Shown here: in pieces, positions 5,063 to 28,166 of the stretch
Layout: each line of letters begins with the position of its first letter
Numbering within the stretch: the first letter of the stretch is position 1
Assembly: GCA_009773765.1 (NCBI GenBank)
Contig: WTWZ01000006.1
Coordinates: forward strand, 14,706-78,705
Source: Prolixibacteraceae bacterium
GTDB lineage: Bacteria > Bacteroidota > Bacteroidia > Bacteroidales > Prolixibacteraceae
Direction: 5' to 3'
Length of the DNA stretch: 64,000 nt
Notes under the pieces: model-generated
Database searches by the model: none
What the model saw: only the letters and a program-made list of their open reading frames with translations
What the model was told of the DNA's origin: nothing
Translations under genes and position numbers: made by a program

Positions 5063-6550
5063 ATGCAATCATCAATTGCCCCATTTTTATTTAGCCTGCT
5101 GCTTTTGCAACGTTTAATCAGTTTTTCGAAATTAAACGGCAATCAGCAATGGGAAAAATGGTTTAACTATGCCCGTTATTTTTCCATATTTCTGTTTTTG
5201 GGCGGATTCCTTCTTCCTGATCAGGAATCTACTCGCTGGATATGGCATATTTTTCTTATTTCACTCCTCATTTTTGCTTTTCAACAGAAGGAGATGATCC
5301 CTCTTCGCATGGTACTACTGGCCTTTGCACCTTATGCTGCCGTTTCGGTTTTAATTGATTTAACGCAAATTATTTTAAAAGATTTTTATAACCGCTGGAA
5401 CAATTATTTTGATACCACGGTGATGCTTTCGGTTATCTGGCTGGCGGCCATATTTTACAGCCACTACAGGCAAAATAAGACTGCTGAAAAGGAACGTATA
5501 AAAAGGCAGAAAGAAGATGAGGTTAACAGGGCAATTGCAATCAGAAAGGTTGAACTTGAAGGCCTGGTTGCCGAACGTACAACTGAACTTACGCAGCAAA
5601 AAGAGGAATTGGAAAATACGCTTGAAGAACTTAAAGCTACCCAGGCACAGTTAATTCAATCCGAAAAAATGGCGTCGCTGGGGGAACTTACCGCAGGAAT
5701 TGCACACGAAATTCAAAACCCTTTGAATTTCGTAAACAACTTTTCGGAAGTAAGCAGCGAACTGCTTGATGAAATGAAAGAGGAACTGGCAGAGGTTGGC
5801 AAGCAGTTTGCAGCCCGCCCGGACGAACCGGCCTTACGGGTTGGCACCTGGCAGGCAGGGGGGGAGAAACTGAAATTGGCAGTGGAAATTGCAAATGACA
5901 TTAAGCAAAATCTTGAAAAAATTATCCACCACGGTAAGCGGGCCGACAGCATTGTAAAGGGAATGCTTCAGCACAGCCGCAGCAGCAGCGGGATTAAGGA
6001 GCCTGTGGAAATTAACGCCTTATGCGAAGAATATTTACGTTTGGCTTATCATGGGTTAAGGGCAAAGGACAAATCGTTTAACGCAAAACTGAAGACTGAT
6101 TTTGATGCAACCATTGGGAAAATTGATGTTGTGCCACAGGAAATGGGCAGGGTGGTACTGAATTTACTGACCAACGCGTTTTATGCCGTAAATGAGAAAA
6201 AGAAAAGCACAGCCCCCCTGCCCCCCGGAGGGGGGTTAAAGGATACCCAAAATGTATATGAGCCAACAGTTACAGTGAAGACTTCTTTGGTTTCCCCTAT
6301 GGCGGGCGGGGGGGCTGTCAGGGGGGCTTTTGTTCTGATTTCGGTTTCCGACAATGGAAACGGCATTCCACAGGAAGTAGTTGATAAAATATTTCAACCC
6401 TTTTTCACCACCAAGCCCAGTGGTAAAGGAACAGGCCTGGGATTAAGCCTTAGTTACGAAATTATCACTAAAGGTCATGGCGGGGAATTAAAAGTTGAAA
6501 ACAAAGTAGGTGAAGGCGCGACTTTTACCATTGTTATACCGGTTAAATAA
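5063..6550 (+). CDS. Membrane sensor histidine kinase (HK1)
   Basis: This 495-residue kinase has several hydrophobic helices in residues 1-140 without a large extracytoplasmic domain. A coiled coil follows (about 155-200), then the dimerisation helix with phosphoacceptor His215 in GIAHEIQNPLNFVNNF. The GHKL ATPase domain has N box LLTNAFYAV, G1 DNGNGIP, F box FQPFFTTKP and G2 GTGLGLSL. Two insertions mark it: residues near 250-275 (AARPDEPALRVGTWQAGG), from a palindromic element at 5813-5840, and the ATPase loops at about 383-425 (APLPPGGG and SPMAGGGAVRGA), from the repeat pair at 6211-6330. It lies 15 bases before a single-domain response regulator, its probable partner, and downstream of the kinase-STAS pair. 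The signal sensed is unknown. Confidence 0.9.
   Translation: MQSSIAPFLFSLLLLQRLISFSKLNGNQQWEKWFNYARYFSIFLFLGGFLLPDQESTRWIWHIFLISLLIFAFQQKEMIPLRMVLLAFAPYAAVSVLIDLTQIILKDFYNRWNNYFDTTVMLSVIWLAAIFYSHYRQNKTAEKERIKRQKEDEVNRAIAIRKVELEGLVAERTTELTQQKEELENTLEELKATQAQLIQSEKMASLGELTAGIAHEIQNPLNFVNNFSEVSSELLDEMKEELAEVGKQFAARPDEPALRVGTWQAGGEKLKLAVEIANDIKQNLEKIIHHGKRADSIVKGMLQHSRSSSGIKEPVEINALCEEYLRLAYHGLRAKDKSFNAKLKTDFDATIGKIDVVPQEMGRVVLNLLTNAFYAVNEKKKSTAPLPPGGGLKDTQNVYEPTVTVKTSLVSPMAGGGAVRGAFVLISVSDNGNGIPQEVVDKIFQPFFTTKPSGKGTGLGLSLSYEIITKGHGGELKVENKVGEGATFTIVIPVK
5813..5840 (+). repeat. In-frame palindromic insert in the HK1 dimerisation region
   Basis: A GC-rich imperfect palindrome starting GCCCGCCCGGACGAACCGG lies in frame between the two helices of the dimerisation domain. 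The other kinases have a short linker there (for example AVGNNQLANEIA). It shares the arms GCCCGCCCG and CGGG with the C-terminal inserts at 22582, 26102 and 32540, so it looks like a variant of the same family. It is followed by TTGGCACCTGGCAGG, resembling the TTGGCA-type repeats in the other kinases. Confidence 0.6.
6211..6330 (+). repeat. Inverted pair of GC-rich palindromes in the HK1 ATPase domain
   Basis: Copy A (6211-6237) reads AG, C6, TG, C6, GGA, G6, TT. Copy B (about 6294-6330) is a degenerate reverse-oriented copy with GGCGGGCGGGGGGGCT and a second GGGGGGCTTTT. Both keep the reading frame and bracket the strand coding for YEPTVTVKTSL. The same arrangement occurs at the same site in five other kinases of this window. 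Confidence 0.85.
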
Positions 6551-11029: not shown

Positions 11030-12706
11030 ATGATTATAAATAAGAAATTTAGAATGTACTTATTTTTATTTTTTTTGGCTTTTGCGTTGGTAATAGTTAG
11101 TGTATTTGTTTATAAGCATAGATATACAATTAGTTCAAACTTTCATATTATAAACAATGAATTGCTGCCTAGAAATAATCAAACAGTGTCGGGTTTATTT
11201 TTCAGATCAGATTCGACTTATTATGATACATTAGTGAATTTAACACACTTTGCTTTAACTGTAAATAATCATTCATCCTTTCGAATTGACAAAACGCTTT
11301 TTGATGTTGTACCTAAAAATCAGGATTTACTTCTTTCAATTGAATTCCAGGGCAATAAATATCTCCGTAAATATAAAAATGACCCGTTACAGGAAATTAT
11401 TAATGGTTCTTTGGATGAAAAGCTAAAAAAAATTTATGATTCTTTGTTAGACATAGATCGAAAAATATATATCCGTATAAATCCGGAGATGGAACTTTGG
11501 TATTTTAATTTTCCATGGTACAATTGCTATAAATATATTGAAGCTTACCGACATGTGGCTTTGTTATGGCAAAATAAAAATTTAAAATTTATTTGGGGAC
11601 ATTCCGGATTCATTGGAGCTGAAAGGTATTATCCGGGTGATGATGTTGTTGACTTTATAAGTTTTACCTTATATCCAGGCAAAACCAGTTACAGAAATGA
11701 AGTTCACCGGAATTTGCACCGTTTGCGTTTTGTGAATAAACCAATTATTATAATGAAGCATGAAAATGCATGTGGTAATAAGTTGATATATAATTATGTA
11801 AATGCTGAGATTGATACTATTGCCAAATATCAAAATATAGCATATAATGATAGTTTATGGAAAATTTCTGATCCGGTTATCAAGGATAAAAAGTTTCTTA
11901 TTGGGGTGCACGATCCGAGGAAGTTACTCATATCTGACCCTGCCATTTCCCTGGAACATATTTTTGTAAGTTTCGATCATATACAATCCGGAGAATCAGA
12001 AAGGCGGATAGAAGAAGTTTTTTCAAGGAACCATGATGTAATACTTACTGTTGAACCCTGGAGTGAAAAGCCTGATTCAAACATTTTACTCAATATTATT
12101 CATGGGAAATATGACTCTATCATCCATCGCTTACAAAAAGATATTTCGGACAAAAATCATACAGTTTATCTCCGTTTTGCACATGAGATGGAAATTCCCA
12201 TTACAAGATATCCCTGGCAAAGTCAGGATCCATTAACCTATATACGTGCTTTTCGCTATTTTATGCAATTTCCGCAACAAGTTCCTGAGAATGTAAAAAG
12301 AGTGTGGGGACCAGCCGGTGACGGCGGTTCCTCTGATTTTTATCCCGGGGATGATGTTGTGGATTATTTAAGTATAGCTGTTTATGCTTTACCAGACAAA
12401 AATATTACGGATTATGAGAAACAACATACTTTTAGTAGCATGTTTATATTTAAAACATCGAATGTACGGTTTATAAACAAACCAATTTTTATTACAGAAT
12501 TTGGAGTAAAAGGCCCTGAAGAATATAAGTCAATATGGTTGGAAGATGCGGCGAGAATTCTAAATATAAATCCGCAGGTGGTTGGTGTCAATTATTTTAA
12601 TATGAGCGATACACCCGGAGTATGGGGAGAAATAAAAGAGCCTGACTGGAGTATTACACCAGAAACTTTGCACCGGTTTTTGGAAGTTTTAGCCCGAGAT
12701 AACTAA
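11030..12706 (+). CDS. Membrane-anchored tandem GH26-like glycoside hydrolase
   Basis: This 558-residue protein has an N-terminal signal anchor (about residues 5-25) and two homologous TIM-barrel-like halves. Both halves share FYPGDDVVDYLS or YYPGDDVVDFIS and a KPI-type nucleophile strand. The second half keeps the GH26 catalytic pair: acid/base Glu386 in RFAHEME and nucleophile Glu490 in FITEFGVKG. The first half keeps the matching acid (Glu153 in NPEME), but its nucleophile strand reads IIIMKHENACG, with Lys where Glu is expected, so it is probably inactive and may bind glycan. GH26 enzymes cleave beta-mannan, mixed-linkage beta-glucan or beta-1,3-xylan. The gene overlaps the next by one base (TAATG), so an acyltransferase is co-translated. 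The base composition is noticeably more AT-rich than eno upstream. Confidence 0.75.
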   Translation: MIINKKFRMYLFLFFLAFALVIVSVFVYKHRYTISSNFHIINNELLPRNNQTVSGLFFRSDSTYYDTLVNLTHFALTVNNHSSFRIDKTLFDVVPKNQDLLLSIEFQGNKYLRKYKNDPLQEIINGSLDEKLKKIYDSLLDIDRKIYIRINPEMELWYFNFPWYNCYKYIEAYRHVALLWQNKNLKFIWGHSGFIGAERYYPGDDVVDFISFTLYPGKTSYRNEVHRNLHRLRFVNKPIIIMKHENACGNKLIYNYVNAEIDTIAKYQNIAYNDSLWKISDPVIKDKKFLIGVHDPRKLLISDPAISLEHIFVSFDHIQSGESERRIEEVFSRNHDVILTVEPWSEKPDSNILLNIIHGKYDSIIHRLQKDISDKNHTVYLRFAHEMEIPITRYPWQSQDPLTYIRAFRYFMQFPQQVPENVKRVWGPAGDGGSSDFYPGDDVVDYLSIAVYALPDKNITDYEKQHTFSSMFIFKTSNVRFINKPIFITEFGVKGPEEYKSIWLEDAARILNINPQVVGVNYFNMSDTPGVWGEIKEPDWSITPETLHRFLEVLARDN

Positions 12707-13785
12707 TGAATAAACATCTGCTTATACCGGACACTATACAGCAAAACAATTTTGATTTGTTGCGGTTTTTGCTGGCATCATCTGTTATATTCTGCCATTG
12801 TTACGCTACTTATTACGGTTGGGAGCAATTTGTCAATAATGAACCCTTTATGAAATGGAGCGGAGGGAAAATCAGCATTGGCAGCGCTGCTGTAAACTTT
12901 TTCTTTGTAATAAGCGGATTTTTAATTGTTCGTAGTTTTGAAAATTCAGCAAATTTTTGGGTGTATATAAAAAAACGTATTCTGCGCATTTATCCGGGGT
13001 TTATTGTAGTGTTTGTCCTCAGCTTTTTGGTATTCGGACCAATTGGCCACATGAAAGACATCAATTTCACAGAATATCAAAATTTCCTCAAAGCAATACC
13101 ATTAAAAAGGGAAACAGCCAATATGCTTAGCTTACAATCCCCTCTTGAACAGCGATATTTTTTGCAACTGCCACAATCCGGCCTCAATAACTCCCTTTGG
13201 ACTATTCATTACGAATTTATTTGTTATCTCATGGTACCGGTGCTGGCATGGTTAGGTTTGACGAAACAAAAAAAATGGGTACTTATTTTACTGTTAATCA
13301 GTTATTTGCTATTGTGTTTACAAACCTTGGGATATATTTTCCCTTTCAAACAAAGTTTAAGCGGTGGGATTATCGGGAACCCTTATTATTACCCTCGCTT
13401 TTTCACTTATTTTCTATGTGGGAGTTGTGTGTATGTTTTCAGAAATCAAATACCCCGGAATATTTGGTTGGCACTTGTGGCATTATTAAGTTTTGTACTC
13501 TCTTTTAAATTGAATCTGATTGATGTGATTTGGCCTGTGTCAGGTACATATTTGTTGTTTTATGTCGCATATCACCACAAATTTATTTTTCCAAAATTTG
13601 CAAAATATGGAGATCTCTCTTATGGGATTTATCTGTATGGATGGCCATTACAGCAATTAGTTCTATTATTTTGGGGAACATATTTAAATGTTTATACTTT
13701 TTTTGCGGTTGTATTCCCTATTGTTTTACTTTTTGCCATTTTGAGTTGGAATGTAGTGGAGAACCCGGCTTTAAAACTTAAATAA
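12706..13785 (+). CDS. Acyltransferase family 3 (OafA-like) membrane protein
   Basis: This 359-residue multi-pass membrane protein has the family's N-terminal pattern FDLLRFLLASSVIFCHCY, including the conserved His, then SAVNFFFVISGFLI and KKRILRIYP. About ten hydrophobic helices are evident. The family moves acyl groups, usually acetyl or succinyl, onto extracytoplasmic sugars. Its ATG overlaps the stop of the GH26-like gene, and its 3' end overlaps the convergent fcl gene by 15 bases. Within the locus it most likely decorates the polysaccharide made by the GT2 fusion at 16143-19913. Confidence 0.85.
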   Translation: MNKHLLIPDTIQQNNFDLLRFLLASSVIFCHCYATYYGWEQFVNNEPFMKWSGGKISIGSAAVNFFFVISGFLIVRSFENSANFWVYIKKRILRIYPGFIVVFVLSFLVFGPIGHMKDINFTEYQNFLKAIPLKRETANMLSLQSPLEQRYFLQLPQSGLNNSLWTIHYEFICYLMVPVLAWLGLTKQKKWVLILLLISYLLLCLQTLGYIFPFKQSLSGGIIGNPYYYPRFFTYFLCGSCVYVFRNQIPRNIWLALVALLSFVLSFKLNLIDVIWPVSGTYLLFYVAYHHKFIFPKFAKYGDLSYGIYLYGWPLQQLVLLFWGTYLNVYTFFAVVFPIVLLFAILSWNVVENPALKLK

Positions 13786-14886
13786 ATTCTCAACATACCA
13801 TTTATACATTCTTTCAATACCTTCCTCAATTTCAGTGGTATGATGCCATCCCAATGCGTGAAGTTTGGTTACATCAGTAAGTTTGCGCATCGTTCCATCA
13901 GGTTTGGCAGTGTTAAAAACGAGATTGCCCTTAAAACCAATTTTTTCCTTAATTAAATATGCCAGGTTTTTAATGCTGATTTCCTTCCCAGTTCCAATAT
14001 TGATATGTGTGTTCCTGATTTCCTTTTGATTGAAATCGGCCAGATCAGAGAAATTTACGTTTTCCATTACAAACACACAGGCATCGGCAAGTTCTTCGCT
14101 CCATAGGAATTCGCGCAATGGACTACCGCTGCCCCAGATTTCTACGGATACTAAATTTTGAGAATCACTTTCCGGTTTATTAATTGAAATGCCATATTTT
14201 GACAACATACCGGTAATTTGTTCCTCGCCTGCACTGCCATCAACACCTTCTACCGGCCGTTTATTGAAATCATTTCTGATGGCGTCCCAATTATTATCCT
14301 CAAGGCATCTGCCAAGATAAATCTTCCGTATTAACGCAGGAAGCACATGAGATTTCTCCAAATCATAATTATCGTTCGGGCCGTAAAGATTGGTTGGCAT
14401 TACCGACAAAAAATTAGTGCCATACTGAATATTGTAACTTTCGCACATTTTAATACCGGCAATTTTTGCAATGGCATAAGGTTCGTTTGTATATTCGAGC
14501 GGGCTGGCCAGCAAACTATCCTCAGGCATTGGCTGAGGTGCATTGCCAGGATAAATGCAGGTGCTTCCCAGGAATAGGAGTTTTTTAACCCCGTATTTAT
14601 ACGCATGATGAATGATATTATTCTGGATCATCAGGTTTTCGTATATAAATTGCCCCCGATAGGTGTTATTTGCAACAATCCCGCCCACTTTTGCAGCAGC
14701 CAGAAAAACATAATCCGGTTTTTCAGTTTTAAAAAAGTCATCCACCGCTGCCGTATCCATCAGGTCAAGTTCATTGATAGTCTTTCCAATTAAATTGTAA
14801 TAACCTTTCAAAAGAAGACTTTTCCATATTGCTGAACCCACCAATCCGGTATGGCCTGCAACATATATTCTTGAGTTTATTTTCAT
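13771..14886 (-). CDS. fcl: GDP-L-fucose synthase
   Basis: This 371-residue NADPH-dependent 3,5-epimerase/4-reductase converts GDP-4-keto-6-deoxymannose to GDP-L-fucose. The Rossmann motif is GHTGLVGSA, the catalytic Ser is in LFLGSTCIYPG, and Tyr/Lys are in EPYAIAKIAG. It is about 50 residues longer than the E. coli enzyme. The extra part is an insert near residues 205-260 (DNNWDAIRNDFNKRPVEG and following), in a stretch before the ELADACVF region. It starts 6 bases after the gmd stop, so the two act in sequence from GDP-mannose. Confidence 0.95.
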   Translation of the reverse strand: MKINSRIYVAGHTGLVGSAIWKSLLLKGYYNLIGKTINELDLMDTAAVDDFFKTEKPDYVFLAAAKVGGIVANNTYRGQFIYENLMIQNNIIHHAYKYGVKKLLFLGSTCIYPGNAPQPMPEDSLLASPLEYTNEPYAIAKIAGIKMCESYNIQYGTNFLSVMPTNLYGPNDNYDLEKSHVLPALIRKIYLGRCLEDNNWDAIRNDFNKRPVEGVDGSAGEEQITGMLSKYGISINKPESDSQNLVSVEIWGSGSPLREFLWSEELADACVFVMENVNFSDLADFNQKEIRNTHINIGTGKEISIKNLAYLIKEKIGFKGNLVFNTAKPDGTMRKLTDVTKLHALGWHHTTEIEEGIERMYKWYVENLFKF

Positions 14887-14892
14887 TTTAAA

Positions 14893-16074
14893 TTACTCAA
14901 AGTAATTCAGTGTCCGGTAACCACCTTCGCGCAGATAAGCATCCTTTTTCATTAATGCAACATCAGAATGTATCATATCCGAAATCAAACCTTTTAAATC
15001 ATATTTGGGTATCCATCCCAGTTTTTCCCTCGATTTGGTTGCATCGCCAATCAGCAATTCAACCTCTGTTGGTCTAAAGTATTGGGAATCAACTGCCACT
15101 ATGGATTCTCCGGCTGAATTCGACGAAATACTTTTTTGAATCCGGTTTTTAAACTGTTCCAGAAATTGTTCTCCAACTTTCGCGACAAAGAGTTTTTCGT
15201 CAACGGCGGTCAGAAAACCTTTTTCGTTCTCATTTTCTCCTGTAAACGAAATTTCAACTCCCAGTTCCTCTCCGGTCATTTTAATAAAATCGCGTATTGA
15301 AGTTGTGATTCCGGTTGCAATTACATAGTCATCCGGAGCATCCTGCTGTAAGATAAGATGCATCGCCCTGATGTAATCCTTGGCATGTCCCCAGTCGCGC
15401 CGTGACGATAAGTTTCCCAAAAACAGGGTTTCCTGCATCCCTAAAACAATTCGTGCCATTGCCCTTGTAATTTTACGGGTAACAAACGTTTCACCGCGTA
15501 TGGGTGATTCATGGTTAAACAAAATACCATTGGAAGCGTGCATATTGTATGCCTCCCTGTAGTTTACCGTAATCCAGTAAGCATACAACTTGGCCACACC
15601 ATAAGGAGATCGCGGATAAAACGGGGTTTTTTCAGTTTGGGGAACTTGTTGCACCAAGCCGTACAATTCAGAAGTTGAAGCCTGATAAACCCTTGTTTTA
15701 TTAACTAGTCCCAGCAACCTGATGGCTTCCAGTACCCGCAGCGTGCCAATGCCATCAGCATTAGCCGTATATTCGGGCGTATCGAAACTTACCTTCACAT
15801 GGCTCATTGCCGCCAGGTTATAAATCTCATCGGGTTGTGCTTCCTGAATTATACGGGTCAGGTTCATACTGTCGGTCATATCGCCGTAATGCAAAATCAG
15901 GTTACGGTTATCAACGTGTGGGTCCTGATAAATATGATCGATTCGTTCGGTATTAAACATTGATGCCCGGCGTTTTATCCCATGAACGATATAATCTTTT
16001 TTAATCAGGTACTCGGCCAGATAAGCTCCGTCCTGACCGGTAATGCCGGTAATTAATGCTGTTTTTTTTGTCAT
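14893..16074 (-). CDS. gmd: GDP-mannose 4,6-dehydratase
   Basis: This 393-residue SDR enzyme makes GDP-4-keto-6-deoxy-D-mannose, the step before Fcl. Motifs are [18 protein letters not shown] (nucleotide binding), STSELYG (Thr and Glu of the active site) and [12 protein letters not shown] (Tyr and Lys). The C-terminal [13 protein letters not shown] is family-typical. A moderate insert near residues 285-320 makes it longer than E. coli Gmd. It follows the GT2 fusion gene by 68 bases and precedes fcl by 6. GDP-fucose from this pair may feed the local polysaccharide, or surface glycans generally. Confidence 0.96.
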
Positions 16075-16142: not shown

Positions 16143-19100
16143 TTAGTCATTCATTATATAAGGGGTATTCAATGTAGTAATATCGGTTTTAATTGCTTTT
16201 CCATCGGAAGCCGTAAGTAATAATCTGAAAAATTCATGGTTTTCAGGAATTTTAAGTGAAAGCACCGGTCCAATGCCTACATCCTTTATGGCCAGATAAT
16301 TACCGTATTTATCACATTTAACCAACGACCATTCAAAACTGTAACCATCCACCTGCATTCCATATTTCCAATCTGTGTTCTCATTATAAATCATTGCATA
16401 ATATTCATGGATATTATTTGAATACATAGGAATTGTTGGTTTTAGAATCCTGATTTTAGAGTTATCGATTTGGGTACCGGTGTCTTGTAAAGAATTCATC
16501 AATTTAAGATACTCTGTTTTATATCTTCCTTTTCTATCGGTTATTCCATTAAATGTCAGTCTGTTGCTTTCATGAAGATCGCGCCAAGAAGTAATAAAAA
16601 AAGATGGATGCTTATCAAATATCTCCTGTTTTATTAATGGTTCAACATCTATCTCGCTGTAAATATATTTTATTTTTTTACGGTACAGATAAGCGCTTAA
16701 TGAATCCAGTTGTTGCTCATCCTTTAACACCAATCCCAGCCCGTCAATGCCATTTACATTATCAATCATCATTCCGGCATGATAAACAGATAGCTGGTTT
16801 ACTTCCAAATCCACAATGACCGGCCTGATCGAATCAATATTTTTTATTTCCCTCACCAGATCCTGCAACCAAATTAAATATGCCCTGTTTTGATAAAGCA
16901 AACGGGGCTTCAGGTAAAAGTCCTTTTGATTGTATTGTACATCATTCTGAATGTTCCATGACGTTATCTGTTCGTTGTTTTTGTGCCTGTTTAATATTTT
17001 TAAAATGTCACTTTTTAGTTGTCTGGCTTGTATGGTGTCAATGATAAAATCGAGGTATGAAGGTATCCAAAAACCATAAGCAATATCAATGTCATACTCT
17101 TTTGCAATGGTTAAAACATTATATCTGTATATTGAGTTTCCCTCAAATTTAAGGGTATTAATACCCAGCCGTTTAATTTTTTCAAACTCTGTTTCAAGGT
17201 TTTGCCGGTTTAAAACATGATAATCTTTACGCCAGTCATGTCCTTTTTGAAAATATATACCTTTAATATCTTTAAATTCTTTAGTGATGTTCTGGTATTC
17301 CGGTGCTTGGGAAGGAAAAATTTCCGGTAATTCTGAGAACACATAATCAGGTACTTCCTTGTTGTTAAATGAATTTTTTATAAGTTGGTTTTGGGTTATT
17401 GTCCAGTCCAGAAAACCGTTCTGTTGCAGGCCATTGGGCCAATTGTTATCTACTTTACTGTTAAAATAAATGACCGACTTAATTTCGTCATACTCATTTT
17501 CAATTGAGGCAAAGGCATTTGTAATCCATTCATTTTGATTTCCTTCATCCGGAAGTGATCCAAATTCTGATATCATCACCGGTGTCGAGGGAAGATTGAC
17601 GAACTCCATATGAAAATGATGATACAAACTGTCAAAATCCTGCCAGCCACCATCTTCATTCAAATTCCCGTAATTGAGAATATTCACTCCTATCCAATCC
17701 AAATATTCTCTTCCCGGATAAAATGAGGCAACATTTTCAGATTTCCAGGGATTCCAGACCCATATCACATTATTTGCTTCTATATTCTTAAATATCCCGT
17801 AGGTGTGAACCCAAGCTTTTTTGAATTTTACTGATGCGCTGTCACCGGCAATGTACCACGGATAAAACGGATTATCAAACTCGTGGGCGAACCTCAAAAA
17901 AACCGGCCTGTTCAGATTTTTCAATTTTTCTGCAAAATGGGTTATAAAACTATCAAAATATCCATCCTCAATGAGTTCAAAAACGTGTTTATCCTGATTG
18001 GTTTCATCATTAAATGAATTTAGCCATGGTTCCCATGTAATCATGGGAATTGATTTTTGACGATATATCGAATCTAAAAGTACCGCCGGAAAATTTGATT
18101 CGATATCCTTTTTCCAGGCAACGTACAGTGAAATAATATCGAAACTGACATCAATTTGTTCCGATAAATCCCTTACATTTTGAAGGTTAGAAATTCCATT
18201 GTCAGCAATTGGGGCAAAAACGCCGATATAGTTGATTACATTCTTTTTTTGAATTTCAGGTTTAACCCCTCCCCATTTTACATATTCAGTATAATAATGA
18301 AAACTTCCGAAAGTTGCTAAAAGCACAAAAACAAAAGGCAGTGCCGCCTTATGCCAAAATTTAAAAGCATGGTTTTGAATTGAACTTATTATTAAATTGC
18401 CTTTTTCTTTAATATCAAAACTCAGGCTTACTGGTTTAGGTTTTTGGTAAGCAAATTTTAGGGTATAAAACATAAAAGAAGCGTTCAGCAAAGCAAAGCC
18501 CGACATAAAAATGGAGAATGGCGTAAAATCGATGGATAAACCATAAATAACCGCGATGATGGAAACAACTCCCACAATCAGGTTTGGAATCAGTATTTTC
18601 CAGCTTGTACGATCCTTATCTTCTTTTGGGGTAGGCAGATACGGTACTTTTTTACGGATAATTGTATAAATAAGCCCGATAATGTAAATCCACCAGGTAC
18701 AGGCAAGTAAAACCCCTCCCATCAGGTGAGTGCCCCGTTCACTTTTATCTGTCACCCAGCGCTGCACATAAAACCGAATCCCTAAAATACTGGTTAAAAC
18801 CGGAAGAAAAATCAATCCGAAATTAATTACATTTCCTTTCCAGGGCGTGGTAGCAGTGAAAAGTGAAATAAATGGTATTAAAAAACTGATTAGGTAAAAT
18901 ATTCCGGAAAGATAGTGAAGGGGTAAAATCCCAAAATGGATTCTTTGGCGCCATGTAAAGTGTCTGAAAAGTTTTGGAAAAACAGTAACCAAAAGTTCAA
19001 GTGTCCCCCTTGACCATTTCAGTTGCTGCTTGTAATACGAAGTCAAGGTCGAAGGAACCAATCCTTTTGTAAAGATTTGCGGCACATAAACTGATTTCCA

Positions 19101-19913
19101 GCCTTTGGCGAAAAGCTGCATAGCTGTATGCATATCTTCTGAAAGTCCCGGTGCATGGCCGCCGATAGAATCGAGCGCTTTACGCCTGAAAACGCAATTA
19201 GCGCCGATGGCGTTGACAGTTCCATAAGAGTTCATGGTCATCATGATTGGGCCGTAGAAATGAAAGGTCTGTTCTGCAGCGCCCTTTGCCACTGATGATT
19301 CTTCAATGTTATAATAGGCCTGAACGGTTTGTACAAAGCCAATTTTCTCATCTTCAAAATAAGGTATTACCTCATCCAGAAAATCAGGCTTGGGAACATG
19401 GTCTGGGTCGAGAATAAGACAAATATCGCCATTTGCCTGTAAAAGGGCATTGTTAATATTGCCAGCTTTGGCATTGATCCTGTTATTTCGGGTAACATGA
19501 ATGATACCATGCAGTTTACAAAAATCTTTCAAATAAGGATCGTTCGCTTCGTCACATAAATAGGTAGTATGAGGATATTTAATTTTCTGAACAGCAAGCA
19601 GCGTTCCGGTTATCATTTCATAAGGTTCGCCCGGGAAGAAAGTAGTTAAAACATCGGCAGTAATCTTTTTTGTTAGTACAGGTTTTTTCGGCATTGAAAT
19701 ATCCCAGTAATGATACCATATATAAATTATCCTGATACTGTCAAAAACAATTGGCCCAATTAAAAGCCAATAAAGCAGATGATTATCGATGAAAACAGGA
19801 TTCAGAAACCAGTAGAAAAAGTTGAAAATGGTAATTAATCCGAGAAGGATCATCAACCTGACTGTAGCTTTTTCAATTGCAGTTAGAGAATTAAATATTT
19901 TTTTATTATTCAT
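16143..19913 (-). CDS. GT2 polysaccharide synthase fused to GH26-like and second TIM-barrel glycosidase-like domains
   Basis: This 1256-residue fusion starts with two membrane helices (about 18-75), then a cellulose-synthase-like GT2 domain. It has DPDHV (Asp169, metal/UDP site), SED (Asp260, catalytic base position) and QQLKW at 296-300, the Q(Q/R)xRW-type acceptor motif. Several membrane helices follow (about 320-540). The rest should face the periplasm. Residues about 555-840 form a GH26-like domain with acid/base Glu678 in RFAHEFDNP and nucleophile Glu783 in ISEFG. Residues about 850-1150 form a second barrel resembling GH2/GH5 enzymes. There the usual Asn-Glu is Asn-Asp (Asp991 in NIQNDVQY), with Glu1087 in YSEID as candidate nucleophile. 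A small beta domain ends the protein. No PilZ domain is seen. The gene overlaps its upstream neighbour by 4 bases (ATGA). It could polymerise a beta-glycan and trim or transglycosylate it on export; the product is unknown. Confidence 0.85.
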   Translation of the reverse strand: MNNKKIFNSLTAIEKATVRLMILLGLITIFNFFYWFLNPVFIDNHLLYWLLIGPIVFDSIRIIYIWYHYWDISMPKKPVLTKKITADVLTTFFPGEPYEMITGTLLAVQKIKYPHTTYLCDEANDPYLKDFCKLHGIIHVTRNNRINAKAGNINNALLQANGDICLILDPDHVPKPDFLDEVIPYFEDEKIGFVQTVQAYYNIEESSVAKGAAEQTFHFYGPIMMTMNSYGTVNAIGANCVFRRKALDSIGGHAPGLSEDMHTAMQLFAKGWKSVYVPQIFTKGLVPSTLTSYYKQQLKWSRGTLELLVTVFPKLFRHFTWRQRIHFGILPLHYLSGIFYLISFLIPFISLFTATTPWKGNVINFGLIFLPVLTSILGIRFYVQRWVTDKSERGTHLMGGVLLACTWWIYIIGLIYTIIRKKVPYLPTPKEDKDRTSWKILIPNLIVGVVSIIAVIYGLSIDFTPFSIFMSGFALLNASFMFYTLKFAYQKPKPVSLSFDIKEKGNLIISSIQNHAFKFWHKAALPFVFVLLATFGSFHYYTEYVKWGGVKPEIQKKNVINYIGVFAPIADNGISNLQNVRDLSEQIDVSFDIISLYVAWKKDIESNFPAVLLDSIYRQKSIPMITWEPWLNSFNDETNQDKHVFELIEDGYFDSFITHFAEKLKNLNRPVFLRFAHEFDNPFYPWYIAGDSASVKFKKAWVHTYGIFKNIEANNVIWVWNPWKSENVASFYPGREYLDWIGVNILNYGNLNEDGGWQDFDSLYHHFHMEFVNLPSTPVMISEFGSLPDEGNQNEWITNAFASIENEYDEIKSVIYFNSKVDNNWPNGLQQNGFLDWTITQNQLIKNSFNNKEVPDYVFSELPEIFPSQAPEYQNITKEFKDIKGIYFQKGHDWRKDYHVLNRQNLETEFEKIKRLGINTLKFEGNSIYRYNVLTIAKEYDIDIAYGFWIPSYLDFIIDTIQARQLKSDILKILNRHKNNEQITSWNIQNDVQYNQKDFYLKPRLLYQNRAYLIWLQDLVREIKNIDSIRPVIVDLEVNQLSVYHAGMMIDNVNGIDGLGLVLKDEQQLDSLSAYLYRKKIKYIYSEIDVEPLIKQEIFDKHPSFFITSWRDLHESNRLTFNGITDRKGRYKTEYLKLMNSLQDTGTQIDNSKIRILKPTIPMYSNNIHEYYAMIYNENTDWKYGMQVDGYSFEWSLVKCDKYGNYLAIKDVGIGPVLSLKIPENHEFFRLLLTASDGKAIKTDITTLNTPYIMND

Positions 19914-22540: not shown

Positions 22541-25500
22541 CTATGCTGGCAACGTAATAGTAAATTCAGTTCCTTCACCCTCCCCGTCCGAACCGGCACG
22601 GGCGGGCTTCGTCTCCACCTTCAACTCCCCGCCATGCGCCTTTACTATATCATAGCTCAAACTCAATCCCAGGCCGGTTCCCTGTCCGGTGGGTTTGGTG
22701 GTAAAGAAGGGCTGGAAGATTTTATCGATGATGGAGGAGGGGATGCCGGGGCCGTTGTCGATAACAGAAATAGAAGCCCAAGCCCCCCTGCCCCCCAAAG
22801 GGGGGTTCTGGAAAGTAGTTCTAACAGTGACAGTAGGTTTATAATCAGTTGGGATTTTCTTGATCCCCCCTTGGGGGGGCGGGGGGGCTGTAGTTGGGGG
22901 GGCTTGTACGGCATAAAACGCATTATTTATCAGATTCAGCAAAACCCTGCCAATATCCTGTGGAATGACATTGATTTTTGGCAGGTTGGGGTCGAAGTCG
23001 GTTTTAAAACTGGCATTGAATGATTTGTCTTTTGCCCGAAGGCCATGATAACTCAAACGCAAATACTCATCGGCCAAAGCGTTGATATCTGTTGGTTCTT
23101 TTTGGCCGGTGCTTGTACGGCTGTGTTGCAACATTCCCTTTACAATGGCGTCGGCGCGTTTGCCGTGGTGATTTATTTTTTGTTCATTCAGCTTGATATC
23201 ATCTGCGATCTCCTCTGCCAACAGCCTGTTGCCAACTGCCAACTCCTTTTTCAGTTCATCAATTAACTCGGTATTAATCTCAGAGAAGTTGTTCACAAAG
23301 TTCAGCGGGTTCTGGATTTCATGGGCAATTCCAGCGGTTAACTCGCCAAGCGATGCCATTTTTTCGGATTGAATAAGCTGAGCCTGAGTGGTCTTCAATT
23401 CAGTGTAGGCTTTTTCAATTTCTTTGGCATGAATTAATTCCTTCTCACGGTTTTTCTCCCTTTCGGCATTGAGTAACCTGTGCCGCTGGAACCGATCGAC
23501 TCCAAACACTGCTGCAATAAACAGTAATCCATATATACAAAATGCCCACCACGTGCGCCACCACGGTGGAAAAATAGTGATATCAATTTTCTTTTCTGTC
23601 CAAACGCCATAACTGTTCGCACCCTTTACGTGAAATGTATATTTACCAGGTGGTACGTTAAAGTAGTAAACTGTTCGGCCCGAATTTGCCTGGAGCCAGT
23701 TTTTGTCATAGTTTTCGAGGTAATAGATCAACTGGTTTTGTTCAGGTTTTGCATAATCAATCACACTGATGTCAAAGGAAAAAACATTTTGATTATACTG
23801 TAATTCAATTTTATTCAAATTGGAAAGGCTTTCTTTCAACGGACCCCCATCGCCGGGTGTTACCTTCTGATCGGAAAGGCGAAAACTTGTAAAAGCAACT
23901 TCAGGCGCCCTTAATTTTTGGGTTAGCTCAACCGGCGAAAATGAAAAATATCCTGTGGCATCGCCAAAATAAATTTCTCCATTGCTCCTTTTGAAACCCG
24001 AACCAAAAGACAAAGCATATTCATTAATACCGAAATTTTTGCCAAATACCGTGCTTTCATTTCGCTGTGCATTAATTTTTGCGATTCCCGATGATGTGCC
24101 CAGCCATAGATTTTTCTGGTCATCTTCAACAATACTTGTTGTTTCGGTTAAACCTGACGGAGAACCTGAGTCGGTGTAACGTAAAAAATTATCAATGCCG
24201 GCATCGTATCTGTACAATCCATCACTGCCGCCTGCCCACAATACGCCGTCCGTGTCCTGGTAAATACTCATAATTCCGGTACCAATCAAATAGTTTTTAA
24301 AAGTTTTATTTTCACGGTTAAATACACTAATCCCACCGGTGTCCCAGGCACTTACCCACAATTTGCCATCTTTATCCTCAAATAAATCAGTAATTATATT
24401 TGCTCCATACGGTTCGGTATTTGCCGGATTTTTGAAATAATACGTAAACTTGCCAGTCTTACGATCCATCAGGTTCAAACCCCGGAATGTTCCAACCCAG
24501 AAATTTCCATCTTTGTCTTCAAATACACAGGTTACATTGTTATTTGAAGGGCTGCTGCTGTTATTTGGTTCGTTGATGTACCTGATAAATTTTTCATTTT
24601 TCCTGTCCCATAAATTTAATCCACCAGTGCTGCCAATCCAGATTTTGCCCTGTCTGTCCACCCTGATGGAATAAACACCATTTGCATTTGCATTTGTAGG
24701 GTTCGAATCAATTAAAAATCGTTTTTCAATGCTATTTTTAATGCGAATTGCACCCTGGTTTGTACCAATCCAAAATGTACTGTCGGGCTCTTCATAAAAA
24801 CTATTTACATTCGCTGTTGAAATTAACGTGTGCGGTATTTCCTTGTGCAAAGGATCGATGTGGTAGATATTTCCCTGAGTGCCGCCAATCCAGAGAATCC
24901 CATCGCGCGAGGTAAAGGAGGTAAAGGCGCCGTTGTCATTAAATCCTTCTGTTGAATCCTCAGTTCTTTTATAATTTATAATTTTTCCAACTTCTGAATT
25001 GAAGTAAAAAAGTCCCGCATCAACAGTTCCGTACCAGTAATTACCGGCAGCATCCTGATTGATAAAAGTAATATGTTCATAATCAGGGGTTGTAATAGTA
25101 GCAGGCAGGCTGCTAAACTTTTCAGGATGCGCCGCATCGTAAATCAATCTTTCAAAAGTTCCGTCTGTGCGGTTCATTTTGTGTAAACCCAATCTGGCAG
25201 TGCCTATCCAGAAATTCCCTTGTTTATCTTCAAAAATTGCGCTGATTTTATTGTTTATCAGACTTTTGTTGTTATTTGCATCGTGCAGGTACCGGGTAAA
25301 TTTGCCGGTTTCCCTGTTGAACCGGTTTAAGCCTCCCGCATCGGGCCCTCCTCCGTTATCGGCGTAAGGACTGCCGGTGCCAATCCAAAGCGTTCCCCCG
25401 CTGTCCTCATAAATTTCGCGTACCTGGTTATTGCTGATTGAAGTTGTATCATCGGCCTGGTAGCGGTAATGATAAAATTTATTGGTTTCCGGATCATATT

Positions 25501-25981
25501 GATCGAGACCACCGTGAGTGCCAACCCAAAATATTCCCTGCTTATCTCTTAATATCACGGTTACAGTATCACTACTTAAACTTTCCGGATCATTCGAATC
25601 GTGCGCAAAATGAGTAAAAATTCCGGATTCCGGATCAAAATGATCAAGGCCTTTTCCCAAACTGCCAACCCAAATGGTGCCATCATGATCAGCATAAACC
25701 GATTCCAGAAAATTGCTCATTATCGAATGAGGATTTAGCGGATTGTTTTTGTAGGATATTACATTTTTGCCATCGTAACTGTACAATCCTTTTTTGGTGG
25801 AGTACCACATGAAACCGTTAACATCCTGCGTAATACCAGTTACAAAGATGAAATTATTTCCATCAGGAGGCGCTACTCTGTTAAATTCAATTTGCTGACC
25901 AAATGCCTGAAACGACACCGTAACAAACAAAAGTATTAATACATAACCTGTTTTTTGAAGCTTTGATTTCATATAATACAT
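22541..25981 (-). CDS. Beta-propeller sensor histidine kinase (HK2)
   Basis: This 1146-residue kinase has a signal peptide ending near AFGQQ, and about a dozen two-component regulator propeller repeats of the type GxxWVGTxxGLxxxDxxxxxF up to residue about 680. A Y_Y_Y domain follows (LIYYLENYDKNWLQ, VPPGKYTFHVKGAN), then one membrane helix (WWAFCIYGLLFIAAVFGV) and a coiled coil. The dimerisation helix has His887 (GIAHEIQNPLNF). The GHKL domain has NLINNAFYAV, DNGPGIP, FQPFFTTKP and GTGLGLSL. It is built like the Bacteroidota hybrid sensors for polysaccharides but ends after the ATPase, lacking receiver and AraC output domains. It is last in the minus-strand kinase operon, 76 bases after HK3. 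It carries palindromic inserts at 22781-22904 and 22582-22609. A glycan ligand is plausible by analogy only. Confidence 0.92.
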   Translation of the reverse strand: MYYMKSKLQKTGYVLILLFVTVSFQAFGQQIEFNRVAPPDGNNFIFVTGITQDVNGFMWYSTKKGLYSYDGKNVISYKNNPLNPHSIMSNFLESVYADHDGTIWVGSLGKGLDHFDPESGIFTHFAHDSNDPESLSSDTVTVILRDKQGIFWVGTHGGLDQYDPETNKFYHYRYQADDTTSISNNQVREIYEDSGGTLWIGTGSPYADNGGGPDAGGLNRFNRETGKFTRYLHDANNNKSLINNKISAIFEDKQGNFWIGTARLGLHKMNRTDGTFERLIYDAAHPEKFSSLPATITTPDYEHITFINQDAAGNYWYGTVDAGLFYFNSEVGKIINYKRTEDSTEGFNDNGAFTSFTSRDGILWIGGTQGNIYHIDPLHKEIPHTLISTANVNSFYEEPDSTFWIGTNQGAIRIKNSIEKRFLIDSNPTNANANGVYSIRVDRQGKIWIGSTGGLNLWDRKNEKFIRYINEPNNSSSPSNNNVTCVFEDKDGNFWVGTFRGLNLMDRKTGKFTYYFKNPANTEPYGANIITDLFEDKDGKLWVSAWDTGGISVFNRENKTFKNYLIGTGIMSIYQDTDGVLWAGGSDGLYRYDAGIDNFLRYTDSGSPSGLTETTSIVEDDQKNLWLGTSSGIAKINAQRNESTVFGKNFGINEYALSFGSGFKRSNGEIYFGDATGYFSFSPVELTQKLRAPEVAFTSFRLSDQKVTPGDGGPLKESLSNLNKIELQYNQNVFSFDISVIDYAKPEQNQLIYYLENYDKNWLQANSGRTVYYFNVPPGKYTFHVKGANSYGVWTEKKIDITIFPPWWRTWWAFCIYGLLFIAAVFGVDRFQRHRLLNAEREKNREKELIHAKEIEKAYTELKTTQAQLIQSEKMASLGELTAGIAHEIQNPLNFVNNFSEINTELIDELKKELAVGNRLLAEEIADDIKLNEQKINHHGKRADAIVKGMLQHSRTSTGQKEPTDINALADEYLRLSYHGLRAKDKSFNASFKTDFDPNLPKINVIPQDIGRVLLNLINNAFYAVQAPPTTAPPPPQGGIKKIPTDYKPTVTVRTTFQNPPLGGRGAWASISVIDNGPGIPSSIIDKIFQPFFTTKPTGQGTGLGLSLSYDIVKAHGGELKVETKPARAGSDGEGEGTEFTITLPA
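22582..22609 (-). repeat. Hairpin insert in the HK2 C-terminal tail
   Basis: Plus-strand CCCCGTCCGAACCGGCACGG and the following GCGGGCTT form an imperfect palindrome, with CCCGT/ACGGG and CCG/CGG arms. In frame it encodes KPARAGSDGEG within VETKPARAGSDGEGEGTEF. HK4 and HK5 have only a short VETIEGEGSEF-type link here, so this is an in-frame insertion. Near-identical copies sit at the same codon position in HK3 and HK6. Confidence 0.75.
22781..22904 (-). repeat. Inverted pair of GC-rich palindromes in the HK2 ATPase domain
   Basis: Copy A (22781-22807) reads AG, C6, TG, C6, AAA, G6, TT. Copy B (22862-22889) is its inverted form, with an extra G7CTT unit to 22904. In frame they encode NPPLGGRGA and APPTTAPPPPQGG, flanking TDYKPTVTVRT, a core strand of the ATPase fold. 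The extra unit in copy B suggests a partial second insertion or slippage. Confidence 0.85.
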
Positions 25982-26057: not shown

Positions 26058-28166
26058 TTAATAAATAGGTAACAGTATTGTAAACTCACTTCCAACCCCC
26101 TCCCCGTCCGAACCGGCAAGGGCGGGCTTCGTTTCAACTCTTATTTCTCCTCCATGCGCCTTAACAATATCATAACTCAAACTCAATCCTAATCCTGTTC
26201 CCTGCCCGGTGGGCTTGGTGGTGAAAAAGGGTTGGAAGATTTTATCCTTAATGGAATCCGGAATTCCGGGGCCGTTGTCAGAAACCCCAACCAAACAAGC
26301 CCCCCTCGTTCCCCCCGAAGGGGGGAGGTAGGAAGTCTTCACAATTACTGTTGGCTTATGTACATAATTCGGGTCTTTGATCCCCCCTTCGGGGGGCGGG
26401 GGGGCTTGTACTGCATAAAACGCATTATTTATCAGATTCAGTAACACCCTTCCAATATCCTGTGGAATAACGTTGATTTTGGGAAGCGTTTCATCGAAGT
26501 CGGTTTTAAAATCGGCATTAAATGATTTGTCTTTTGCTCTCAATCCATGGTAAGCCAGCCGCAAATATTCATCGGCCAGCGCGTTGATATCCGTTGGTTC
26601 TTTTACTCCGCTGCTGGTTCGTGAGTGTTGCAGCATTCCTTTTACAATATCGGCAGCACGTTTGCCGTGGTGGTTGATTTTTTCGAGGTTTTGTTTGATG
26701 TCGGAAAGAATCTCGGATACTTGATTCTCGTCTCTGGATTCTGGATTTTTGGCCCTTTCTTCTTCAACTTCCACAATTAGTTCGTTGCTGACTTCCGAGA
26801 AGTTGTTTACAAAATTCAAAGGGTTTTGTATTTCATGGGCAATGCCGGCAGTGAGTTCGCCGAGGGACGCCATTTTTTCGGATTGGATGAGTTGAGATTG
26901 GGTGGATTTGAGTTCGGAATAAGCTTTTTCAATTTGGGCTTTGTCCTTTTTTTGTCGTTTATTATTTCTGTGGAAAATGAAGATTATCAGTAGCAAAACA
27001 ATTATTCCTGAGACCAACGCGAATGTTCTTGTTCTGGATTGTGTACGCATTTGTTTTGCTTCCAGTGCCTGGAGTCTGATTTGTTCATCAAAGCCAATGG
27101 TCTGAAATTTATTTACATGCTGTTCCTTGTTCAGTATTGTTTTTAACGTAATACCCTTCTTCAGATAAAAGTAAGCGCTATCTGTTAAATTTATCAAATC
27201 GAAAGCCGAAGAAAAAGCCAGATAAGCATCTGCCAGTCCAACAGAATCGTTCATAAACCGATAGATATTCACTGCATTTTCGGCAAAAATGAGACTTGAA
27301 TCAATGGCGCCGGTTTTTCTTTCCAAATCAGCAAGAGCCAGATAGGCCATTCCCACATAATCGGTGCTTTCAAGTTGGGTACTGGTTTGGACGCATGTAT
27401 GATAGTATTTTTTTGCATCAGCATAGTTCAAATTATCCTCTTTTATCCTGCCAATATCAAGATAAATTAATCCCCTGTATTTTGCATATCCTGATTTCAA
27501 AGAATAGAAGAGCGCTTTTTTCAAAGAAGGTATTGCCATTTCAAATTGTTTCAATCCAATATAGGATTCTCCAATGTTTTGATGAATCAGCGATAAAAAT
27601 GCATCGTCTTTCAATTTTTCGTTGAGAGACAAACATTTATTGTGATACTCCAATGACATGTTGTAATCTCCCGTGAAATAATAAAGTAGGCCAAGGTGTT
27701 CATTAATATTGGCTAAAACCTTTAATCGTGCAAGGTGCGGATCTCTTTCCCCTGAAAATAAATTTACATTCCATATATCTTTCTGGATTCTATCGTCGGA
27801 CGCGATTTCCTTTGCCAACAGAAGTGACTTTAGCCCAGTTGAATAATTCTGCATCAATCCTGAGACATATCCTATTCTGCTAAGGCCTTCGGCTTCCCAT
27901 AATTTTTGTTTTAATTGTCTTGCCAGTTTTAACAATTCTTCGAAATGCGCCAAGGCAATCGGTCTGCTGATTTCCTGGTAATAAAGCCCCAATTGTCTGT
28001 TGGTTAGCATTCTTATTGTGTCGTTTTTTGATGAAATCAACAATTGTTTTAAACTGTCTGCTTGAACCTTTGTTGGCTCCTGCCAGAAAGGGTTTTCTTC
28101 TGCGCGCAGCAATAACGGGAACACGAAAAAGAGAAAAATGTAACTGTATAATTTGAATTGTCTCAT
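26058..28166 (-). CDS. TPR-containing membrane sensor histidine kinase (HK3)
   Basis: This 702-residue kinase has a signal peptide (hydrophobic residues about 5-20, ending LLRAEEN). A periplasmic region of tetratricopeptide repeats follows (for example YNMSLEYHNKCLSLNEKLKD and NYADAKKYYHTCVQTSTQLE), then one membrane helix near residues 380-397 (ALVSGIIVLLLIIFIF) and a coiled coil. The phosphoacceptor is His444 (GIAHEIQNPLNF), followed by a GHKL domain with all boxes. Its ATPase inserts at 26297-26406 and tail insert at 26102-26129 match those of HK6 more closely than its immediate neighbours. It starts 4 bases after HK4 ends. No response regulator is attached or adjacent. Confidence 0.92.
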   Translation of the reverse strand: MRQFKLYSYIFLFFVFPLLLRAEENPFWQEPTKVQADSLKQLLISSKNDTIRMLTNRQLGLYYQEISRPIALAHFEELLKLARQLKQKLWEAEGLSRIGYVSGLMQNYSTGLKSLLLAKEIASDDRIQKDIWNVNLFSGERDPHLARLKVLANINEHLGLLYYFTGDYNMSLEYHNKCLSLNEKLKDDAFLSLIHQNIGESYIGLKQFEMAIPSLKKALFYSLKSGYAKYRGLIYLDIGRIKEDNLNYADAKKYYHTCVQTSTQLESTDYVGMAYLALADLERKTGAIDSSLIFAENAVNIYRFMNDSVGLADAYLAFSSAFDLINLTDSAYFYLKKGITLKTILNKEQHVNKFQTIGFDEQIRLQALEAKQMRTQSRTRTFALVSGIIVLLLIIFIFHRNNKRQKKDKAQIEKAYSELKSTQSQLIQSEKMASLGELTAGIAHEIQNPLNFVNNFSEVSNELIVEVEEERAKNPESRDENQVSEILSDIKQNLEKINHHGKRAADIVKGMLQHSRTSSGVKEPTDINALADEYLRLAYHGLRAKDKSFNADFKTDFDETLPKINVIPQDIGRVLLNLINNAFYAVQAPPPPEGGIKDPNYVHKPTVIVKTSYLPPSGGTRGACLVGVSDNGPGIPDSIKDKIFQPFFTTKPTGQGTGLGLSLSYDIVKAHGGEIRVETKPALAGSDGEGVGSEFTILLPIY
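26102..26129 (-). repeat. Hairpin insert in the HK3 C-terminal tail
   Basis: This is the same element as at 22582-22609, with one substitution in the loop-proximal arm (AAGG for ACGG). In frame it encodes KPALAGSDGEG before VGSEFTI. It sits at the identical position relative to the last beta strand of the ATPase domain. Confidence 0.75.
26297..26406 (-). repeat. Inverted pair of GC-rich palindromes in the HK3 ATPase domain
   Basis: Copy A (26297-26327) reads AG, C6, TCGTT, C6, GAA, G6; this variant spacer gives LPPSGGTRGA. Copy B (26379-26406) encodes APPPPEGGIKD. They flank HKPTVIVKTSY. The entire block, including the strand between the copies, is almost identical to that of HK6 at 32720-32850, indicating recombination between the two genes. 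Confidence 0.85.

Follow-up and report, generated by a model that had tools for sequence, protein, structure and literature searches.

The window analysed here is a stretch of 64,000 nucleotides from a Prolixibacteraceae bacterium (assembly GCA_009773765.1, contig WTWZ01000006.1, positions 14,706 to 78,705). On its reverse strand lies a gene for a membrane synthase of family GT2 that continues, within the same chain, into a GH26 glycosidase domain and a degenerate GH158 barrel; its start overlaps a separate gene encoding an intact GH158 enzyme (Table 1). Our computations establish the domains, the catalytic residues that are kept or lost, that the gene pair is conserved, and that its membrane part matches BcsA. 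With slightly better than even confidence, we propose that the two genes form a unit that makes and finishes a beta-1,3-containing, probably 1,3;1,4-linked, glucan, and that the GH26 domain processes the chain at its periplasmic exit.

One reading frame joins a synthase to two glycosidase-type domains

The fusion is a single uninterrupted open reading frame (ORF) that opens with ATG and encodes 1256 amino acids. Domain searches and structure prediction, which a preliminary description of this DNA had called for, confirmed the synthase (PF13632 in the whole protein, E 5.2e-27) and the GH26 domain, and an AlphaFold2 model of residues 1-1150 reached a mean predicted local distance difference test score (pLDDT) of 87.8. 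The residues named in that description all lie where it placed them, namely Asp169 (DPDH), Asp260 (SED), QQLKW at 296-300, Glu678 (AHE), Glu783 (SEFG) and Asp991 (NDV), and the domains are indeed linked through membrane helices.

We collected relatives by a contig scan with the GT2 part, so that the taxonomic range reported here is that of the best 80 matches listed. These fall into 79 loci (74 Bacteroidota and 5 Balneolota) with 80 GT2 ORFs, 70 of which carry a GH26- and/or GH158-type domain in the chain. Nine GT2 ORFs, all from Pontibacter, have no glycosidase domain, and one that is cut by a contig end shows no such match. The alignments used 55 of 84 GT2 rows, 52 degenerate GH158-type rows, 36 GH26 rows and 37 of 79 GH158 partners; left out were rows truncated at a contig end, the five whose GH158-type domain is intact, and others similar to a row already included.

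Since independent genomes, many of them isolates, repeat the fusion, it does not result from two genes misjoined by assembly. The same-genus copy in genome G026 could be read in favour of such an artefact, as this fusion (70% identity) runs into a contig end and its tail opens another contig. Against it, the C-terminal domains share one frame in the 70 ORFs, and models of lipid transferases, the other way in which the preliminary description could have failed, score far under the CelA model. We therefore give an artefact of either kind practically no chance; it is already refuted for all practical purposes.

The GT2 part is a synthase of the cellulose-synthase class

The best NCBIfam match of the fusion is TIGR03030 (CelA), with 156.6 bits and E 6.8e-46 (159.7 bits in the genome scan), while PgaC scores 66 bits and HpnI 53 bits. 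Among solved structures, the closest relative of the GT2 part is BcsA (phmmer, 5e-34). Modelled residues 11-502 superpose on 4p00 (BcsA residues 59-587) with Z 28.1, a root mean square deviation (rmsd) of 2.9 and 477 aligned residues, and on E. coli BcsA with Z 29.4; channel helices of the BcsA type stand alongside the GT domain in the model. The assignment to a polysaccharide synthase of this class thus holds on both the CelA score and the BcsA fold. A lipid glycosyltransferase was ruled out as a candidate (CelA 157 vs HpnI 53 bits; BcsA 5e-34 vs ceramide glucosyltransferase 8e-4).

Residues D169, D171, D260, Q296, Q297, K299 and W300 are invariant in all 84 aligned GT2 ORFs, the window's included. 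The lysine in QQLKW, where Q(Q/R)xRW has arginine, is hence a feature of every row. D121 is present in the fusion besides the DxD at 169/171 and D260. Y425, T428 and K430, which follow the hydrophobic segment 397-418, are invariant in the alignment of 55 rows, and we take them to be the gating-loop region, by analogy with an FxVT motif. No PilZ domain was detected in the Pfam scan of the fusion at E up to 1, and residue 502 is followed by a helix and then by GH26. A plasmid search for GT2 relatives returned 23-30% identity among the matches listed, none of which was identified as BgsA. The switch position of CslF6 is described as Tyr787 in interface helix 3 (PMC10374906); its counterpart could not be placed safely on the GT2 part of the fusion.

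The GH26 domain resembles lichenases and keeps both catalytic residues

In the genome scan the fusion matches PF02156 with 39.6 bits (cut-off 20.2), and GH26 is not among the matches of the whole-protein Pfam scan. CtLic26A (endoglucanase H) matches the fusion with E 2.9e-26, and a profile of 36 relatives finds it with E 3.9e-41, the next GH26 following at 1.1e-11. The modelled domain (558-858) superposes on CtLic26A with Z 31.0, rmsd 2.3 and 270 aligned residues, compared to Z 21-23 for the xylanases and mannanases listed. The motif ITWEPW is common to the fused domains and CtLic26A, and the two other strong GH26 genes of the same genome have SWH/AWH..NP at this place. By similarity, the fused domain appears to be of the lichenase type. 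Both glutamates, E678 and E783, are present as had been noted; they are kept in 57 of the 63 complete rows with a GH26 match, and the site is degenerate in 6.

This type bears on the donor, for which the preliminary description had left UDP-glucose and GDP-mannose open. A lichenase-type GH26, together with the constant partner from GH158, a beta-1,3-glucanase family, favours UDP-glucose and a beta-glucan over GDP-mannose. In the same way, the profile, fold and motif make a mannan synthase joined to a mannanase less likely.

The second barrel is a degenerate GH158 domain

Alone, the second barrel of the window has no Pfam match and no convincing sequence match in the PDB. A profile of 52 relatives, spanning the barrel and its C-terminal domain, aligns with the GH158 partner family (hhalign probability 99.2, E 6.9e-20). 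The best structural family for its model (pLDDT 92.3) is also GH158, with Z 28.4, rmsd 3.2 and 332 aligned residues for 9p2f and Z 26.7 for BuGH158; the next family reaches Z 22.5.

The GH158 catalytic pair of glutamates occurs in none of the 52 relatives. Position 991 holds Asp in 28 of them, the others having N, T, A, P, K, L or a gap, and D991 combines with E1087, as in the window, in 8 rows. The barrel with Asp991 at the acid position is therefore real, but the Asp is not conserved, and its interpretation as an enzyme tuned by a Glu to Asp change does not survive: with the pair lost throughout, the domain looks non-catalytic rather than retuned. An active barrel using Asp as the acid is ruled out for the family, and weak activity of the window's own copy, with D991 and E1087, is possible judging from these residues.

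An intact GH158 gene accompanies the fusion

The partner gene lies upstream of the fusion on the same strand, with a 4-nucleotide overlap between its stop and the ATG of the fusion. Its product matches 9oro (E 3.8e-46) and BuGH158 (6pal, E 6e-46) by sequence, with E values of 5.3e-94 against GH158(Pro) and 1.3e-89 against the endo-laminarinase BuGH158. The title of one GH158(Pro) structure entry describes a soak with the mixed-linkage oligosaccharide G4G3G. All 79 relatives, counted after removal of GH158 fragments of at most 340 amino acids, retain N148, E149 and E246.

A separate GH158 gene is present at 78 of the 79 loci listed. It precedes the GT2 ORF by at most 100 nucleotides on the same strand in 65 of 80 cases, most commonly with a 4-nucleotide overlap (24 cases). 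Locus L069 has no separate GH158 gene; the gene is divergent in the Pontibacter loci and in L089, follows on the opposite strand in L072, L078 and L081, and is split into two ORFs in L027. A second GH158 gene occurs elsewhere in the window's genome, at L117 (G000:C27:3834-5090).

The glycosidase half would face the periplasm

The model contains helices at 12-36, 45-69, 321-353, 362-387, 397-405/407-418, 438-461, 465-489 and 507-547. If 397-418 is an interface helix, as the match to BcsA suggests, five membrane crossings follow the GT domain, and the last helix brings the C-terminal half into the periplasm. The loop 490-520 that precedes this helix is strongly positive (net +4.7), as expected on the cytoplasmic side.

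Variants suggest that one or the other glycosidase domain decayed

The unit is patchily distributed. Within the genus 1 of 36 other genomes matched (G026), overall 4 of 61 genomes did, and the degenerate GH158-type domain was found at E <=1e-30 in 9 of 296 sampled genomes of the phylum, the window's own included.

Five rows (L069, L072, L078, L081 and L089) carry an intact GH158-type domain in the chain. In the first four GH26 is degenerate, and in L089 both glycosidase domains are intact. In a GT2 tree built by a quick method, with some forks open, L089 and the four rows with degenerate GH26 branch outside the main clade of 68. With two long-branched rows as the root, this suggests an ancestor with two active glycosidase domains, of which one or the other then decayed. 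In the remote relatives (loci L012 and L013, genomes G040 and G048) a lichenase-type GH26 is a gene of its own in the same gene run as the GT2, and a TPR-type outer-membrane gene lies there too, beside the GT2; these two genomes have no GH158 gene.

Several copies are peculiar in other respects. In Chitinophaga japonensis (L062, 8609-18853) the GH158-fusion pair is present twice in tandem, and GH26 of the first fusion copy is shortened and has lost the His preceding the Glu. In the GT2 tree the Balneolota copies (L016, L017, L021, L022 and L023) nest beside the copies of the window and other Prolixibacteraceae, suggesting that the gene moved between phyla. The unfused GH26 of G040 adjoins two large secreted proteins (L012, 3647-7502) that contain repeated sandwich-type domains.

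Proposed mechanism and alternatives

The preferred mechanism is as follows. The GT2 part, in the inner membrane, would polymerise glucose from UDP-glucose on the cytoplasmic side and, in the manner of BcsA, push the chain out through its own channel. Since the top-ranked relatives of both glycosidase types act on 1,3-linked beta-glucans, according to their structure titles, the product is most likely a beta-glucan with 1,3 links, and a 1,3;1,4 mixed-linkage glucan is our first guess; both sugar and linkage are thus what we infer from the enzymes around the synthase. The extra last helix would set the C-terminal half in the periplasm, so that the emerging chain meets GH26, which may cut it or transfer it to an acceptor and thereby set its length or release it. 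The neighbouring dead GH158 domain probably serves to bind and guide the chain, and the active GH158 encoded by the overlapping upstream gene would trim or remodel its beta-1,3 parts. Length control, transglycosylation or release, suggested earlier as the role of the fusion, may each apply.

Several observations weigh against this mechanism. The score for TIGR03030 (156.6 bits) lies far below the equivalog cut-off of 699.1 bits. The family GH26 also includes mannanases and xylanases, and three further complete rows with a GH158-type domain show no GH26 match. The nine Pontibacter loci have GT2 alone and 8 of the 9 genomes lack any GH26 of the fused type, so GH26 is not needed in every version of the system. 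No outer-membrane exporter is linked to the fusion/GH158 pair in the neighbourhoods, and the search of the genome for one gave only weak matches (L012 barrel protein, E 0.005; TPR-type hits to PgaA, at best 39.7 bits with a cut-off of 366.65). The genes for a GDP-mannose dehydratase (GMD) and a GDP-fucose-synthase-type enzyme beside the window's copy may point to another polymer. Finally, the hydrophobicity of segment 397-418 (mean 1.68) matches that of a crossing helix. If it crosses the membrane, unlike the interface helix IF3 of BcsA, the glycosidase half would be cytoplasmic, which is why we infer rather than assign its periplasmic side.

A bolder version of the proposal, which we hold to be doubtful yet worth stating, is that these bacteria have an undescribed Bacteroidota beta-glucan pathway in which one membrane protein makes, cuts and rejoins a mixed-linkage or cyclic glucan, the dead glycosidase feeds the chain to a lichenase-type transglycosylase, and L089, branching near the base with both domains intact, represents the ancestral state before either decayed. 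If the preferred mechanism is right, Bacteroidota would have their own beta-glucan system. With one chain both making and finishing the glucan, the question of chain length and release could be reduced to single residues (E678 and E783). The versions without GH26, with a dead GH26 and a live GH158-type domain, or with both alive provide a natural comparison set.

A periplasmic maker of cyclic or short glucans, as proposed for the pseudomonad Orphan/NdvB, is unlikely. Here the glycosidase half would act as a transglycosylase to close or shorten the chain, which would remain in the periplasm as an osmoregulatory glucan. The plan is that of GH17-GT2 proteins as described in PMC10237404, although the glycosidase families differ. 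This reading would also agree with the lack of a regularly linked exporter gene, no neighbour family exceeding 12 of the clustered loci, but a TPR outer-membrane-type gene adjoins the GT2 in the remote unfused relatives. The membrane gene resembling sulfatases, LtaS and phosphoglycerol transferases that occurs next to the unit at 5 of the 79 loci would fit as well, and so would the match of the intact GH158-type domain of L089 to the glucanosyltransferase family GH72 (2.7e-9). Conversely, an exported acetylated polymer would explain the MBOAT or SGNH genes beside the unit at some loci just as well, and the window's acyltransferase has no NCBIfam match, OpgC included.

We consider it quite improbable that the fusion makes pure beta-1,4-glucan (cellulose) and carries its own BcsZ-like cleaner, with GH26 and GH158 serving only to clear misplaced periplasmic chains. 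CelA and BcsA are nearest to the GT2 part among the models and structures tried, but PilZ was not found in the chain, the CelA cut-off is missed, no exporter of BcsC or PgaA grade was found and both glycosidase families indicate beta-1,3-containing glucans.

More improbable still is a synthase of some other polymer, such as one of mannan type or one bearing fucose, in which the glycosidase domains are retained for binding. This would account for the GMD and GDP-fucose synthase genes, which immediately follow the fusion here and lie close by in the same-genus genome, and for the several degenerate copies of GH26, a family best known for mannanases. Against it stand the Glu pair, which 57 of the 63 complete GH26-bearing rows retain, the lichenase-type motif and a GH158 partner that is intact in 79 of 79 relatives.

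Relation to known systems

The preliminary description held that synthase and hydrolase are usually separate. This is true for Bcs, but fusions are known in GH17-GT2 proteins (PMC10237404) and in the tunicate CesA-GH6 (PMC7464555). In the GH17-GT2 proteins of Pseudomonas and others (NdvB/Orphan, Glt1, Glt3 and Glt7), as far as these sources describe them, a membrane GT2 like BcsA is likewise joined to a periplasmic barrel of the retaining-glycosidase type, and the glycosidase is proposed to process nascent beta-1,3-glucan (PMC10237404, PMC11005184). There, however, GH17 is N-terminal. In our fusion GH26 and the dead GH158 lie on the C-terminal side, past an extra helix, and an active GH158 is encoded by a linked gene of its own; GH17 is not among the Pfam or structure-relative matches of the fusion.

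The tunicate protein, in the account of PMC7464555, is a cellulose-synthase GT2 with a C-terminal glycosidase domain. Its GH6 domain lost the catalytic Asp, which the separate gene GH6-1 keeps, just as the GH158 domain of our fusion is dead and its partner alive. It differs in family (GH6) and host (animals), and in our fusion an intact GH26 lies in between.

With BcsA, which has BcsZ beside it, the fusion shares the GT2 fold, the D,D,D,Q..W motifs and the channel helices; it differs in having no PilZ, in K for R in QxxRW and in glycosidases that are in cis or encoded by an overlapping gene. No linked BcsB or BcsC was seen in the neighbourhoods of the fusion. BgsA of Sinorhizobium meliloti and RiGT2 of Romboutsia ilealis are GT2 synthases of actual or proposed 1,3;1,4-beta-glucan, and BgsA too is without PilZ (PMC10374906). 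The description there, on which our comparison is based, reports no fused glycosidase. CtLic26A and BuGH158/GH158(Pro) share the folds of the two C-terminal parts and the partner but are free degradative enzymes.

We found no description of a GT2-GH26-GH158 chain with an overlapping GH158 gene in the open PMC literature, a search that left aside subscription papers and CAZy. The idea of a GT2-glycosidase fusion is already known from GH17-GT2 and CesA-GH6; the set of GT2, GH26 and GH158 with an overlapping GH158 gene is a variation on it.

Table 1. Features of the window, with positions counted from its first nucleotide
Feature	Position	Strand	Evidence
Fusion: GT2 synthase, GH26, degenerate GH158 barrel, C-terminal beta domain	16143..19913	-	ORF, motifs, model
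BcsA-like GT2 catalytic domain and channel helices, residues 11-502, no PilZ	18408..19883	-	TIGR03030, BcsA phmmer, 4p00 fold
Asp169 of DxD motif	19407..19409	-	84/84 rows
Asp260, TED-type catalytic base	19134..19136	-	84/84 rows
QQLKW acceptor-site motif, residues 296-300, Lys replaces usual Arg	19014..19028	-	84/84 rows
Extra long helix, residues 507-547, beyond part matching BcsA up to 587	18273..18395	-	model
GH26, lichenase type (by similarity), ITWEPW motif, residues 558-850	17364..18242	-	sequence, fold, motif
Glu678, GH26 acid/base position	17880..17882	-	alignment
Glu783, GH26 nucleophile position	17565..17567	-	alignment
Degenerate GH158 barrel and its C-terminal beta domain, residues 865-1256	16146..17321	-	hhalign, VIA fold match
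Asp991 at GH158 acid/base position	16941..16943	-	Glu in 0/52 relatives
Glu1087 at GH158 nucleophile position, not conserved	16653..16655	-	Glu in 10/52
Partner gene, 455 amino acids, GH158, one N-terminal hydrophobic segment	19910..21277	-	9oro, 6pal matches
Protein of 558 amino acids, two GH26-like repeats, first degenerate, second intact; occasional companion, possible accessory	11030..12706	+	alignment
Acyltransferase_3 membrane protein beside the 558-residue gene; possible substituent enzyme	12706..13785	+	PF01757 1.3e-26

Neighbouring genes

Apart from the GT2/GH158 pair, no neighbour family occurs in more than 12 of the clustered loci, and many neighbours, named by eye, look like housekeeping genes. 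Downstream of the fusion lie the GMD gene and the GDP-fucose-synthase-type gene (14893-16074 and 13771-14886). The same window also holds an alpha-L-fucosidase (PF01120) at 46944-48263.

Proteins of the 558-residue type occur near 10 of the loci counted, the window included. In all nine aligned rows the second repeat is intact and the first lacks the second Glu, the Glu of the window's first repeat aligning imperfectly. The protein is thus another pair of a dead and a live glycosidase. It lies near 4 of the 5 loci that have a lost or degenerate GH26 together with a dead GH158-type domain, compared to 6 of 56 others (one-sided Fisher test, p 0.0018); among these four copies, the one at L083 is divided between two ORFs, and the loci vary in flank length. 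The tree needs only two changes to explain the loss, and the median p of an independent-pairs test is 1. With so few changes and an uninformative pairs test, we do not claim that this protein replaces a lost cis GH26.

A relative of the window's acyltransferase adjoins the fusion in one other locus, L077. An OpgC-like identity was rejected, as neither protein has an NCBIfam match. G026 and four of the named loci have an MBOAT gene next to the unit. The membrane protein with a sulfatase-type domain found by the unit in 5 of 79 loci scores 74 bits for arylsulfatase, 55 for LtaS and 44 for phosphoglycerol transferase I in NCBIfam, all below the cut-offs.

Elsewhere in the window, three histidine kinases (22541-25981, 26058-28166 and 5063-6550) share low-complexity inserts, such as PPLGGRG/PPPPEGG, within the ATPase part; these inserts resemble a mobile repeat translated in frame.

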